Source: Candidatus Sumerlaeota bacterium
Lineage (GTDB): Bacteria; Sumerlaeota; Sumerlaeia; Sumerlaeales; Sumerlaeaceae
Assembly: GCA_026398535.1 (NCBI GenBank)
Contig: JAPLSQ010000121.1
Location: 1-64,000, forward strand
Length of the DNA stretch: 64,000 bases
Reading direction: 5' to 3'
Under the pieces are notes generated by a model that worked only from the letters and a program-made list of their open reading frames with translations, ran no database searches and was not told where the DNA came from. Position numbers and translations under genes: made by a program. Each line of letters starts with the position of its first letter. The first letter of the stretch is position 1. This document shows positions 16,333 to 21,837 of this stretch, one piece after another.

Positions 16333-18507
16333 ATGTTGTCCGAAAGCCGCCGACTGATCCTGGCGGCATTCGCAATGGGTTTTTCCGCTGTGATCGTTCA
16401 GCTTGTGCTCATGCGCGAATTGCTGTGCGCCTTTTCCGGCAACGAAATCATGCTGGGCATCGCGCTTGGCGGATGGCTGTTGACAACCGGCATCGGATCG
16501 CTGCTGGGGCGGAGCGCCAACCGCTTGAGAAAGCCGGCTATATTTCTGGTTGCGGGATTCGCGCTGCTTGCCGCACTTCCCATAGCACAGGTTTTTACAC
16601 TCAGAGTCGTGCGCGACATTGTCTTCACCAGGGGCGCCGCGGTTGGCGTTGGCGAGACTGTTCTCGCCACCCTTGCCATCCTGCTGCCCTACTGCATCGT
16701 ATCAGGCTGCATGCTCACCCTGACATGCGAGGCGCTCGCAAGATACGAAAGCCGGCGCGCGATAGGCCGCGTCTATTTCGCCGACAGTATGGGCAGCATC
16801 GCGGGAGGAATCGTTTTCTGTTTCGTGCTCGCGGGACGCCTTGATCATTTCATGATACTCATGATCGCCTCCATGTTCATCCTGCTTGTGGGATGGATGC
16901 TTTGTTTTCCCTCCCCCGCGGATCAGTTGCCCAATCAAAATGACAAGCGTCCAATGGTTCCGGGCGCCATCCTGACCGCAATGGTTATGATCATGATTGT
17001 TGTGGCAGTGCTCACAGATCCCGACGCGATCACCACCCGCCTGCAATATCCCCGCCAGAACATCCTCTACCGCGGGAATTCACCCTATGGACGCCTTGTC
17101 GTCACGGAGACCGACGCCCAGTTGAATTTCATATTGAACGGCCAGCCGTACGTCTCGACCGGCAACATCGAGCAGGTTGAGGAAACAGCGCATTATGCCA
17201 TGATACAGGCTTCCACCCCCTGCAAAGTTCTTCTTGTGGGAGGGGGCATTTCAGGCACGGCAAAGGAAATCCTGAAATACGGCATCGACGAGATCACCTG
17301 TGTTGAACTTGATCCGCGGATACTCGATGTGGGACGCGGATTCCTTGGCGGCAATCTTGATGATCCGCGTATCAGGCTGGTGAGCAATGACGGCAGGTTA
17401 TTCATTAAAACAACTGACGGGAAGTACGATGTCGTCATTATTGACGCGCCCGAACCCGCTACCCTGCAGGCCAACCGGTTTTACACCGACAGCTTTTACC
17501 GTGAGGTGAAACGGATTCTTGCGCCAGGCGGAATTCTTTGCTTCGCGCTGGGTGATTACGCGAATTACATCAGCCGCGAGCAGGCGCGAATGCTCTCATC
17601 GGCCCGGCGCACGCTTGAAACGTGTTATCGCAACGTTCTGCTCATTCCCGGCGGCAGGATATTTCTCCTCGCGTCGGATGCTCCGTTGCACAGCGACATC
17701 GCGCGACGCCTTAAAGAACGTAAAATACCAGTTGTCCACGTCACGCACAGCTACCTTGATGCGATGCTCACTCCCGACAGAATCGCTGAAGTCCAGCGGG
17801 CTTCAAATGAATCAGCCGAGATAAACAAGGACTTCAGCCCCGCGCTTTATGATTATTATCTGCGCCGCTGGGTTAGCCAGTTTAAAACGCAATTTGGAAT
17901 GCTTGAGGGCATATTGGCCATCGCACTATTCACATACCTGTTCCTCATGCGCCCGGCGCCCTTTGCCGTCTTCGCAAGCGGTTTCGCGGCATCAGCGCTT
18001 GAGATCATCCTTCTGCTCGGATTCCAGGTGCTCTATGGCTGCCTTTATAACCAGATCGGTCTGGTCGTGACAATGTTCATGACCGGTCTGGCGGCTGGAT
18101 CGTATTACGCCAACAGAAGGTTGAGCGCAGGGAATCGAACACTGCTGGGAGCCATGATGTTTGTCATGGCGGGATTCTCACTGGCGCTCCCATTGATCTT
18201 TGTGGCATTGCATCGGTTTGGCGCCGCGCCCGAATCATTGCCCGCCGTGCGGATGACCATCAATGTATTGACGCTCATGCTGGGCGGCATTGCCGGAGTG
18301 ATCTTTCCGCTCGCAAGCCAGCTTCAAGGCGATGGCGCGGCGCATGTGTCCTCGCGACTGTATACCGCTGATTTTATCGGGGCAAGCCTTGGCGCGCTTC
18401 TCGTCAGCACACTGCTCATACCGCTCACAGGCATCACCGGCGCCTGCGCGCTCACCGCCCTGCTGAATCTCGCCGGCGGGACATTCGTAATATTCAGGAA
18501 AGGTTGA
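16333..18507 (+). CDS. Membrane-embedded spermidine synthase-like protein
   Basis: A 724-residue protein with a SpeE-like methyltransferase-fold domain (about 235-470) set between two membrane regions: about seven hydrophobic segments in 5-225 and about seven in 525-720. The SAM-binding loop reads VLLVGGGISGTAKEIL, where true spermidine synthases have Asp after GGG. The region IIDAPEPATLQANRFYTDSFY matches the fused-membrane SpeE family. These proteins are widely annotated as polyamine aminopropyltransferases, but their substrate is unproven, and the lost Asp argues against simple putrescine chemistry. It starts three bases after nadE and is followed by radical SAM and polyferredoxin genes. 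Confidence 0.8.
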   Translation: MLSESRRLILAAFAMGFSAVIVQLVLMRELLCAFSGNEIMLGIALGGWLLTTGIGSLLGRSANRLRKPAIFLVAGFALLAALPIAQVFTLRVVRDIVFTRGAAVGVGETVLATLAILLPYCIVSGCMLTLTCEALARYESRRAIGRVYFADSMGSIAGGIVFCFVLAGRLDHFMILMIASMFILLVGWMLCFPSPADQLPNQNDKRPMVPGAILTAMVMIMIVVAVLTDPDAITTRLQYPRQNILYRGNSPYGRLVVTETDAQLNFILNGQPYVSTGNIEQVEETAHYAMIQASTPCKVLLVGGGISGTAKEILKYGIDEITCVELDPRILDVGRGFLGGNLDDPRIRLVSNDGRLFIKTTDGKYDVVIIDAPEPATLQANRFYTDSFYREVKRILAPGGILCFALGDYANYISREQARMLSSARRTLETCYRNVLLIPGGRIFLLASDAPLHSDIARRLKERKIPVVHVTHSYLDAMLTPDRIAEVQRASNESAEINKDFSPALYDYYLRRWVSQFKTQFGMLEGILAIALFTYLFLMRPAPFAVFASGFAASALEIILLLGFQVLYGCLYNQIGLVVTMFMTGLAAGSYYANRRLSAGNRTLLGAMMFVMAGFSLALPLIFVALHRFGAAPESLPAVRMTINVLTLMLGGIAGVIFPLASQLQGDGAAHVSSRLYTADFIGASLGALLVSTLLIPLTGITGACALTALLNLAGGTFVIFRKG

Positions 18508-18525
18508 ATCCAAACCGCGCATTCA

Positions 18526-18684
18526 ATGGAACGGTTTGCGGAGCTTTCACTCGTCGTGCTGATCGCGATTGCCGGTCTTGTCGCCGCAATCCCGCTGGCG
18601 CGATTGCTTGCCATATTGGACATGGATACCCGGAAAGCAAAGCTTGCTATTATGCCATCCTCATGCAGTTCGGAACATAAATAA
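18526..18684 (+). CDS. Possible 52-residue single-span membrane peptide
   Basis: A short ORF in the gap between the SpeE-like and radical SAM genes, starting 18 bases after the former ends. It encodes one hydrophobic segment (about 6-31, LSLVVLIAIAGLVAAIPLAR) followed by a short basic, cysteine-containing tail ending SSCSSEHK. No homologue is recognised and there is no good ribosome site, so it may not be translated. Its position inside a same-strand gene run is the main argument in favour. Confidence 0.35.
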   Translation: MERFAELSLVVLIAIAGLVAAIPLARLLAILDMDTRKAKLAIMPSSCSSEHK

Positions 18685-18720
18685 TGTATACATCGAAACA
18701 CGATGACAGAGACGTAGTTC

Positions 18721-20073
18721 ATGGTTGATCCCACCGATAAGACGCGAGCATCCCCTTCGGCGGATGTGTTTGCGGGCACGCTCACACGCCGAAGCGCGTT
18801 GAAGTATGCGATTGCAGGTCTTGCGGGATTGGCTTGCACAGGCTCGTGCGGATGGCTGCTTTTGCGCCGTTCAGAAGCCGGCATCTTCGCGGAAACATCA
18901 GGCATCTTCAAAGGTGACGCGCCCAAGGATGAACTTTGGGAACAATGGAACAAAAGGGGCTGGGTCAGGGAAGCGCGGCATTATGTCAAGATCGGGCCGG
19001 CTGTGATGTGCAAGCTCTGTCCCAACCACTGCCGTTTGTCGCCCGGCGACCGCAGCCGTTGCCGCAACAAAATCAATCGTGGCGGAACATTGCAGACATT
19101 GGCCTATGCCAATCCATGCGCGTTTCATGTTGATCCCGTCGAGAAGAAGCCATTGTTCCACTTTCATCCCGGAACGCGGACTTTCTCGCTCGCAACCGCA
19201 GGTTGTGTGCTGCGATGCCTGAATTGTCAAAACTGGGACATTTCACAAAAAAAGCCCGAGGAAACGAAGGACCCCTCCGGCCAGGAATACCGGTTGCGTC
19301 CTGATGCCCCGCAACCGGCAAGTCTCGATGACATCGCGCGGTTGAGCATGTTTCCCGAGGATGTTGCCGCCATGGCGCAAGCGCTGAAGTGCCCATCAAT
19401 ATCCTATACATACTCAGAGCCTGTCGCCTATTACGAATATGCATATGACACATGCAAACTGGCGCGGGATAACAAGCTTAAGAACATCCTCGTGACCAGC
19501 GGTTACATCGAGGAGGTAGCGTTGCGCGACATCGCGCAATATGTCGACGCGGCTCATGTCGATCTCAAGGGATTCGACGAACAGATTTACCAGCAGCTTA
19601 ACTCGGGAAGCCTGCAACCTGTCCTGAATACCCTGAAAACACTCAAGTCAGTGGGTGTGTGGTTCGAAATCATCAATCTGATCGTGCCCACCTATACCGA
19701 CAAGGAAGACGTGATCCAGAGAATGTGCGGCTGGCTGACGGAAAATATCGGCGCCGATGTTCCTCTCCACTTCTCGCGGTTCTCGCCTGCGCACAAGCTC
19801 ACTCAACTGCCTCCAACCCCCGTTGAAAAACTCCTCAAGGCGCGCTCCATCGCGCAGGCCGCGGGGCTGCGTTATGTCTATATTGGAAATGTCCGCGGTG
19901 TGGAGGGCGCCGAGACAACCTTCTGCCCCAATTGCAAAAAGGCCGTCGTCGTGCGGGACATGTTCGCCGTGACCGCGATAAACATCGAAAACAGCAGGTG
20001 CGCATTCTGCAAGACTCTGATTGCCGGGGTGTGGAGCGATGGGAACATGCCGGCAGCGGCCGGCCCCGCATGA
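18721..20073 (+). CDS. AmrS-like radical SAM protein with Tat-like N-terminus
   Basis: A 450-residue radical SAM enzyme of the AmmeMemoRadiSam / pyruvate-formate-lyase-activating type. The cluster motif is C162-x3-C166-x2-C169 in AGCVLRCLNCQNW. Before it lies the family's extra cysteine region (C97, C100, C104, C114 in CKLCPNHC...C), and after it a C-terminal zinc-ribbon-like part (CPNC...CAFC). Residues 22-27 read TRRSAL and are followed by a hydrophobic, alanine/glycine-rich stretch, which resembles a twin-arginine signal or a membrane anchor. AMMECR1 and MEMO partners are not nearby. The gene precedes a membrane polyferredoxin that may supply electrons. The substrate is unknown. Confidence 0.85.
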   Translation: MVDPTDKTRASPSADVFAGTLTRRSALKYAIAGLAGLACTGSCGWLLLRRSEAGIFAETSGIFKGDAPKDELWEQWNKRGWVREARHYVKIGPAVMCKLCPNHCRLSPGDRSRCRNKINRGGTLQTLAYANPCAFHVDPVEKKPLFHFHPGTRTFSLATAGCVLRCLNCQNWDISQKKPEETKDPSGQEYRLRPDAPQPASLDDIARLSMFPEDVAAMAQALKCPSISYTYSEPVAYYEYAYDTCKLARDNKLKNILVTSGYIEEVALRDIAQYVDAAHVDLKGFDEQIYQQLNSGSLQPVLNTLKTLKSVGVWFEIINLIVPTYTDKEDVIQRMCGWLTENIGADVPLHFSRFSPAHKLTQLPPTPVEKLLKARSIAQAAGLRYVYIGNVRGVEGAETTFCPNCKKAVVVRDMFAVTAINIENSRCAFCKTLIAGVWSDGNMPAAAGPA

Positions 20074-20127
20074 TTTCATCGCTTGCCAGCCAGCTTTCCA
20101 TGCGTTTGATTGCGCCATGTTTTTGAC

Positions 20128-21837
20128 ATGACCAGCAACGATGCTCAAACTTCCCGCGATTCCTCGCCCGTCATTTCAAAACGGCGGCCGCGATTCTGGC
20201 GCGCGCGCAATATTCGCCGCATCACGCAATCCGTGTTTCTGCTGTTTTTCATCTATTTGATATGGGGCGGGTGCGGCACACCACAGATTTCAGGCGGATG
20301 GGAACTTGCGGCCATGCCCGGACCGCAAATCCTTTTTCTTGCCGATCCGCTTGCATGGTTTTCCGCGGCAATCTCATCAAGATCAATCCTCGTTCATTTG
20401 CCCATCCTGTCGGGCATCTTTATCATCCTCACGCTGATCTTAGGGAGGGTGTTCTGCGGCTGGGTCTGCCCCTTGGGCACGATCATCGATATGACGGGAC
20501 GTTATCTGCGGCCCACGCGGCTTGAACTTCGCGATGCCCGCGCGCGCCGCGAACAGCGCGCCAAACACATGACCGCGCCATTATTCTCCTCCCATGTGAA
20601 ATATTACCTGCTCGTTTTCCTGTTGACGCTTGCGGCTCTTGGCGCCAACCTTGCCGGGTGGTTTGATCCACTCGCCATCCTGATGCGCGCAACAGCCTTT
20701 GCGATCACGCCTTCAGCCGACTGGGCCATCCAGCAAACTCTCGGGCATGTCTCGGGAGAGTCCGCGCTCGGAGCCGCCTTTGCCCCCACATACCACTGGT
20801 TGCGGGCGCATATCATGAATCCCGTGGCGCAGGCATACGGGCAATCTTTTCTTCATCTGGGAATTCTCGCGTTGATTCTTGCGCTGAGCCGCCTGCGCAG
20901 GCGTTATTGGTGCAACGTGTTGTGCCCCCTCGGCGCATTCTATGGCTTGTTATCGCGCTTCGCATTATGTAAAAGGCGCGTGCGAACGTCACAATGCGCC
21001 GAGTGCGCCGTGTGCGGGCATATCTGTCGGATGGAAGCCGTGCAACCGGGTCAGGCATTCATAGCTGATCCCGGCGAATGCCTGCGCTGCATGGAGTGCG
21101 GCGACGCCTGCCCGCGCGGCGGCATCGATATGACTGCCCGCGCTATTCAGGAGGACGCTCAACATGCCCGCGCGCCATACAGCATTACGAGGCGTGGCAT
21201 GCTCGGAGCCGTTGGGGCAAGCATCACAACACTGCCTTTGCTGCGCATGAAGGGATTGGGTCAGGCTGACGGATCAGAGGAATCATTGCCATTCAAGGCA
21301 AGCGAGTTCCTGTTGCGCCCGCCCGGCGCCGCCCGCGAGGGCCTCTTCCTGCGCCTGTGCCTGCGTTGCGGAACATGTTTCAAGGTCTGCCCGCAAAACG
21401 CATTACAACCGGCCTTGCTTCAATCGGGTCTTGAGGGACTGTGGTCACCCGTCGTTGTTCCGCGCATCGGTTATTGCGAACCATCCTGCACGCTTTGCAC
21501 ACAAAACTGTCCCTCACACGCGCTACAGGCGCTCGAAAAAGACGGGAAACGCATACGCGGCCGCCTGGGCACGGCATGGGTTGACCGCAACCGTTGTCTG
21601 TCATGGTCGGCCGATCAGGAATGCGGCGTATGTGAGGAAATGTGTCCCGTGTCGCCAAAAGCAATCGAAATGCGCAATACAAATGGCAATGCCGGCCGCG
21701 TCGGGAAAATGATATCCGCGCCCCATATCGCCGCAGACCGCTGCATTGGATGCGGCATTTGCGAAAACAAATGCCCCGTTGACGGCGCGGCCGCCATTCG
21801 CGTCACACGAATCGGCGAAAGCCGCCACGCCGCTTGA
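20128..21837 (+). CDS. NapH-NapG-like membrane polyferredoxin
   Basis: A 569-residue protein. The N-terminal half is NapH/CcoG-like: several transmembrane helices with two CxxxCP motifs (FCGWVCPLG and WCNVLCPLG) and a ferredoxin-type region with CAECAVCGHIC and CLRCMECGDACP. At 354-360 comes TRRGMLG with a following apolar stretch, a twin-arginine-like signal inside the chain. The rest resembles NapG: several further 4Fe-4S clusters (CLRCGTCFKVCP, CTLCTQNCP, CGVCEEMCP, CIGCGICENKCP). It looks like a NapH-NapG fusion that moves electrons across or along the membrane. The ATG at 20128 was preferred to the TTG at 20110. The neighbour upstream is the radical SAM gene. Confidence 0.82.
   Translation: MTSNDAQTSRDSSPVISKRRPRFWRARNIRRITQSVFLLFFIYLIWGGCGTPQISGGWELAAMPGPQILFLADPLAWFSAAISSRSILVHLPILSGIFIILTLILGRVFCGWVCPLGTIIDMTGRYLRPTRLELRDARARREQRAKHMTAPLFSSHVKYYLLVFLLTLAALGANLAGWFDPLAILMRATAFAITPSADWAIQQTLGHVSGESALGAAFAPTYHWLRAHIMNPVAQAYGQSFLHLGILALILALSRLRRRYWCNVLCPLGAFYGLLSRFALCKRRVRTSQCAECAVCGHICRMEAVQPGQAFIADPGECLRCMECGDACPRGGIDMTARAIQEDAQHARAPYSITRRGMLGAVGASITTLPLLRMKGLGQADGSEESLPFKASEFLLRPPGAAREGLFLRLCLRCGTCFKVCPQNALQPALLQSGLEGLWSPVVVPRIGYCEPSCTLCTQNCPSHALQALEKDGKRIRGRLGTAWVDRNRCLSWSADQECGVCEEMCPVSPKAIEMRNTNGNAGRVGKMISAPHIAADRCIGCGICENKCPVDGAAAIRVTRIGESRHAA

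Follow-up and report, generated by a model that had tools for sequence, protein, structure and literature searches.

Within a 64,000-nucleotide stretch of DNA from Candidatus Sumerlaeota bacterium (positions 1 to 64,000 of contig JAPLSQ010000121.1, assembly GCA_026398535.1; the whole stretch is called the window and its genome G000), three genes in line on the plus strand encode a membrane protein with a SpeE-like domain, a radical S-adenosylmethionine (SAM) enzyme of the AmrS type, and a NapH-NapG fusion polyferredoxin. We consider it reasonably probable that this run supplies the membrane components and the radical enzyme of an AmmeMemoRadiSam system located outside the cytoplasm, with an AmrS anchored through the twin-arginine translocation (Tat) pathway, an exported MEMO-AMMECR1 protein, a SpeE domain on the outside, and a replaceable redox module. 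To our knowledge, radical SAM enzymes are regarded as working strictly intracellularly, at the site where their cofactor is produced, and neither SAM nor low-potential electrons would be expected outside the cytoplasm; if the system is exported, some unknown route must supply both. Conservation of MEMO and AMMECR1 extends to humans, their molecular function being unresolved, and an operon for exported forms of these proteins with a constant set of partners would provide a small, testable gene set. A 2019 study by Burroughs and coworkers is said to extend the gene contexts of MEMO, and part of the SpeE/MEMO association may be on record already. Literature searches found no published function for the AmmeMemoRadiSam system, no account of a radical SAM enzyme that is exported or works outside the cytoplasm, and no publication describing an exported AmmeMemoRadiSam variant, the comparison not extending to the most pertinent earlier study (Burroughs et al. 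2019). For Memo-Ammecr1 systems, PMC7159879 refers to Burroughs et al. 2019.

AmrS and its Tat-like N-terminus

Open reading frame (ORF) calls and family matches agreed on the three-gene, one-strand arrangement that the first-pass annotation had read from the sequence. The middle gene (positions 18721..20073, plus strand) encodes a 450-residue protein that scored 336.7 bits against TIGR04337 (AmmeMemoSam_rS), above the cutoff of 220, and that was modeled by AlphaFold2 (AF2) with a predicted local distance difference test (pLDDT) score of 92.6. Its closest solved fold was that of pyruvate formate-lyase activating enzyme (3cb8, 2.4e-14), and no close AmrS structure was found among the solved structures. 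The radical SAM cluster motif C162xxxC166xxC169 (19204..19227) lies at exactly the residues first given for it and was invariant in 52 aligned homologues. Exported and cytosolic forms had the same cluster cysteines, TYxE/D motif, K283, and H350 in the alignment, and the exported form is therefore expected to depend on SAM as well. No glycyl radical enzyme was seen among the AmrS neighbors, the whole genome not having been searched for one. G000 also encodes a second AmrS, on contig C34, that has no signal. Variants at other loci include a tandem pair of exported AmrS genes separated by a few base pairs (L050:937-3254) and planctomycete fusions of about 1100 residues that combine a signal-less AmrS with MEMO (L061:7887-11342 and L063:7881-11213).

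Sequence reading and the AF2 model revealed a Tat-type motif, TRRSALK, at residues 22-28 (18784..18804), in which the twin arginine is followed by a moderately apolar helix (23-57), and a TatC gene was found in G000. Scanning one genome per species yielded 74 AmrS loci from many phyla; counts of export signals rest on 87 AmrS proteins, 55 with an export-type N-terminus and 32 without. The 55 apolar extensions comprised about 43 with RR, 7 with KR, and one with RK (L034), the rest being plain anchors, and about 49 of the 55 had an RR or KR motif ahead of the radical SAM domain. This recurrence upheld the conservation in orthologues on which the Tat reading of AmrS had been made to depend. Neither TRRSALK nor the second motif that had been read as a Tat signal, TRRGMLG of the polyferredoxin, is due to chance, since RR or KR recurs ahead of the catalytic domain in AmrS homologues and DL[TGS]RRG occupies the matching position in NapH-NapG orthologues (L168-L172).

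MEMO-AMMECR1, the SpeE protein, and their linkage to AmrS

AMMECR1 and MEMO had been reported as absent. This holds for the window but not for the genome, in which a whole-genome search matched AMMECR1 once and MEMO three times, and their absence was rejected on that basis. AMMECR1 and one MEMO are fused in a single 555-residue protein on contig C73 with a Sec-like signal at its start, and the equivalent gene is clustered with SpeE and AmrS in relatives. The fusion retains PHAG, SH, and CG motifs as well as the LRGCIG motif of AMMECR1; judged from sequence, the former three appear to correspond to H49, H81, and C244, through which human MEMO1 binds iron (PMC11081632). Another MEMO, on contig C71, has no signal, and a third MEMO-like protein of 441 residues (L010:8449-9771, contig C92) has a long N-terminal extension of unknown type. 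The first-pass annotation had named the finding of these genes elsewhere in the genome as a refutation, yet their presence favors its alternative of an unusual system, because the MEMO-AMMECR1 fusion is itself predicted to be exported.

Genes for MEMO-AMMECR1, the SpeE membrane protein, and AmrS were grouped in many of the surveyed loci, spanning many bacterial phyla and some archaeal bins. Within the family of G000, the three are consecutive in one cluster in G001 and G004, the contig of G007 ends within SpeE, and G002, G003, and G005 yielded no fusion, no full-length SpeE relative, and no AmrS other than distant matches lacking a Tat-type N-terminus, that of G005 having an apolar stretch ahead of its likely start codon. 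SpeE lay within 6 kb of AmrS for 32 of the 55 proteins with an export-type N-terminus versus 2 of the 32 without (Fisher p = 8e-7); the latter two were L139 and L042, whose anchor seems to lie a short way upstream in a different frame. MEMO or MEMO-AMMECR1 carried a signal peptide, anchor, or lipobox in 24 of 24 cases near an exported AmrS versus 3 of 8 near a signal-less one (Fisher p = 3e-4; a hand count of MEMO genes with a complete start only, L042 and L146 being judged by eye). Locus L012 carries MEMO and AMMECR1 as separate genes with a transmembrane (TM) segment at the start of each, and L135 and L136 possess an additional, separate signal-less MEMO a few kb away. A chance neighborhood of three unrelated membrane-associated genes would account for the failure of the family to keep the NapH-NapG adjacency, but it is contradicted for SpeE and AmrS, a pair conserved with MEMO-AMMECR1 from Planctomycetota to Bacteroidota and Myxococcota, and we regard it as extremely improbable. 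The conserved neighborhood anticipated by the annotation thus applies to the SpeE-AmrS pair and not to NapH-NapG.

The first gene of the run (16333..18507, plus strand) encodes a 724-residue protein (Pfam Spermine_synth, 1.5e-24) with seven predicted TM helices, a spermidine-synthase-like domain (about residues 236-515), and seven more predicted TM helices (AF2 pLDDT 87.9). Foldseek aligned the soluble domain with Thermus thermophilus SpeE (1uir) at 8.6e-14 and TMt 0.72, covering the complete fold. When the N-terminus was taken as inside, the family averages of Lys plus Arg were 18.95 for the inside loops versus 4.18 for the outside loops (family-profile loop values summed by hand, with seven apolar stretches on each side of the soluble domain), and from this bias the soluble domain is predicted to sit outside the membrane. 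The adenosyl-binding acidic residues E325, D327, and D353 are conserved in the family (D353 in 28 of 28), while the equivalent of the first catalytic Asp (371) is D in 12 of 28 and N in 10 of 28, the window protein having D. The protein scored far under the speE equivalog cutoff, and an ordinary spermidine synthase was rejected because the catalytic Asp is not kept in the family. With the adenosyl-binding positions retained and that Asp often replaced by Asn, a putative nucleoside-binding role fits better than spermidine synthesis.

Export of the system is strongly suggested, as a predicted localization, because its four soluble parts point to the same side of the membrane by different routes, i.e., Tat, Sec or lipoprotein signals, and the topology of the SpeE protein. 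The iron-sulfur protein bears Tat motifs and its partner without such clusters bears Sec or lipoprotein signals, as expected under true export.

Redox modules, NapH-NapG, and the proposed mechanism

A redox-module neighbor was found for 27 of 56 exported systems versus 1 of 31 others (L139; p = 7e-6). The neighbor in 17 loci was a small two-helix protein, mostly of 88 residues (79-98), with invariant H54 and H68 (H-x13-H), located between SpeE and AmrS or just ahead of AmrS. Pfam Ni_hydr_CYTB (cytochrome b561) weakly matched 10 of 12 members (best 9.7e-5) and the family had no match among solved structures; we take it to be a putative half-size cytochrome b561-like protein. Elsewhere, AmrS adjoins an FMN_bind+Fer4_5 protein (L042) or a Fer4_5 protein (L034), Fer4_5 is fused to SpeE (L038), and, in another phylum, NapH-NapG and DUF362 share the gene run of AmrS (L025). 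Locus L139 (12376-16998, minus strand, in G012) contains a 1541-codon ORF in which a SpeE-like membrane protein, an FMN-binding domain (with the motif DAITGAS), and a NapH-type Fer4_5 membrane domain are fused. At six further loci (L048, L049, L053, L146, L147, and L149) DUF362 lies directly beside the exported AmrS, several of these having clear Tat motifs; the AmrS proteins of these loci belong to a separate clade, mostly without SpeE nearby. Meheust et al. 2021 (PMC8238504) described FMN-NapH modules as NapH-like flavinylated electron-transfer systems.

In the window the place of the redox gene is occupied by NapH-NapG (20110..21837 from a TTG start, plus strand), with no b561-like protein in the run; an in-frame ATG at 20128 is the more likely start. 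The product belongs to the Fer4_5 and Fer4 families and its top NCBIfam matches were NapG/NapH models, with scores below their cutoffs. It has the layout of a dual Sec-Tat protein, i.e., a Fer4_5 membrane half and a NapG-type half with a twin arginine (TRRGMLG, R361-R362, 21187..21207) before the last TM stretch. The position of this motif in mid-chain is not by itself unusual, because MLMS-1 PFD, another NapH-NapG fusion, was shown to use Sec and then Tat (Tooke et al. 2017, PMC5449189).

Whether this polyferredoxin belongs with AmrS was judged from gene neighborhoods. AmrS, SpeE, MEMO, and AMMECR1 could form a real, exported system beside which the NapH-NapG of the window is an unrelated neighbor with its own quinol or DUF362 role, an alternative to which we give somewhat less than an even chance. 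Orthologues in G001, G003, G004, and G007 are unlinked to AmrS, G003 retaining its copy without an exported AmrS, and other NapH-NapG relatives adjoin DUF362 or MqnA genes; NapH-NapG was accordingly rejected as a conserved family partner of AmrS. Against this separation, the genes of the window are only 36-54 bp apart on one strand, NapH-NapG occurs in the same gene run in L025, and SpeE is fused to NapH-type modules in L038 and L139. Electron donation to this AmrS by NapH-NapG, as predicted from the gene neighborhood, is plausible and moderately supported, but more weight falls on the general claim that a membrane redox module serves exported AmrS, since the family orthologues lie elsewhere and G003 has one without an exported AmrS. 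The membrane redox pathway proposed in the annotation therefore survives as a link that recurs in independent lineages, and its specific donor lacks a conserved adjacency. The family orthologues at L168, L170, and L171 adjoin a gene of the MqnA type for menaquinone biosynthesis, a placement suggestive of a connection with quinones. G000 has a second NapH-NapG fusion (L174:7040-10295, contig C21), the neighbors of which are a DUF362 protein containing NRRKF and a Tat-marked fragment of an aldo/keto reductase.

The 52-residue membrane peptide with one apolar stretch that had been proposed between the first two genes (18526..18684, plus strand) is of uncertain gene status: Pfam and NCBIfam gave no match and no recognizable relative, and other loci have a different protein there, mostly the 88-residue two-helix one. 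The peptide was rejected as a counterpart of the small b561-like protein, the hidden Markov model of that family not finding it. Promoter and terminator scans of the gene run gave signals no greater than in shuffled sequence.

From the gene content, cluster conservation, signals, charge bias, and association statistics, we infer actual export, formation of a complex, and an electron path as follows. AmrS would fold and take up its iron-sulfur cluster or clusters in the cytoplasm, and Tat would insert it by its N-terminal RR anchor so that it remains in the membrane, its catalytic domain facing outward. As a fused protein in this genome (contig C73), MEMO and AMMECR1 would reach the same side by Sec or as lipoproteins. 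The 14-TM SpeE protein would hold its putative nucleoside-binding domain outside, where it may gather or serve the complex and possibly supply SAM. Electrons for SAM cleavage would cross the membrane through the replaceable redox module, for which the half-size cytochrome b561-like protein, the FMN-NapH (NosR-like) protein, and here perhaps the NapH-NapG fusion are candidates. That radical SAM chemistry proceeds on the outer side of the cytoplasmic membrane, with the SpeE protein delivering SAM or a SAM-derived nucleoside and a dedicated transmembrane module delivering the electrons, is a tentative and rather doubtful proposal.

Several observations weigh against an exported system. We know of no SAM outside the cytoplasm, and cluster reduction requires a low potential, beyond quinol alone. 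The seven AmrS proteins with KR instead of RR are all from Bacteroidota or Ignavibacteriota, the AmrS proteins of L046, L051, L052, and L150 have plain TM anchors, and L058, L076, and L139 pair a signal-bearing MEMO-AMMECR1 with an AmrS that has no signal. The loci are mostly metagenome bins, of which the archaeal ones may be contaminated, and the Fisher tests ignore shared descent. One supported clade of 28 rows in the AmrS tree holds most signal-less proteins (26 of 28 without an export-type N-terminus), exported AmrS falls mainly in two groups of 17 and 38 rows (35 exported in the latter), and the exported label needs 7 changes on the tree versus 26 when shuffled. The unlinked NapH-NapG orthologues of the family count in the same direction. 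At L058 (6406-9020, Xylanibacter rarus), an exception to co-export, the signal-less AmrS begins about 15 bp after the signal-bearing MEMO-AMMECR1.

If the RR segment were merely a membrane anchor, AmrS would work at the inner side of the membrane, where it has access to SAM and ferredoxin, and only MEMO-AMMECR1 would be exported, which does away with the SAM and electron problem and suits the KR and plain anchors as well as the three loci with a signal-less AmrS. We nevertheless consider this arrangement unlikely: an N-terminus that is positively charged and leads into a single helix predicts an N-in/C-out orientation with the enzyme outside, the full Tat form SRRxFLK is found across many phyla, and the SpeE domain and neighboring MEMO are likewise predicted to lie outside.

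Comparison with known systems

The exported system proposed here resembles the AmmeMemoRadiSam system (TIGR04337, MEMO PF01875, and AMMECR1 PF01871) in its above-cutoff AmrS, in the MEMO and AMMECR1 motifs kept by the fusion, and in the presence of both proteins in G000 and their linkage to AmrS in relatives (G001, G004, and many loci). It differs in that all of its parts bear signals or are predicted to lie outside and in having the 14-TM SpeE protein and a redox module as extra components. Compared with spermidine synthase SpeE (1uir), the soluble domain shares the complete fold and the adenosyl-binding acidic residues, whereas it is set between 7 + 7 TM helices, predicted outside, with its catalytic Asp often N. 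Pyruvate formate-lyase activating enzyme (3cb8, 3c8f) is both the nearest solved fold and the top Protein Data Bank sequence match of AmrS, which adds four N-terminal cysteines, C-terminal CxxC pairs, and the putative Tat anchor. The NapH-NapG fusion is like the dual Sec-Tat polyferredoxin MLMS-1 PFD in its twin arginine directly ahead of the last TM segment, although a term search of that paper (PMC5449189) found no mention of a radical SAM partner. Finally, L042 and L139 have FMN_bind+Fer4_5 modules of the same kind as the NapH-like flavinylated electron-transfer systems of PMC8238504, the main text of which does not mention radical SAM, MEMO, or SpeE.

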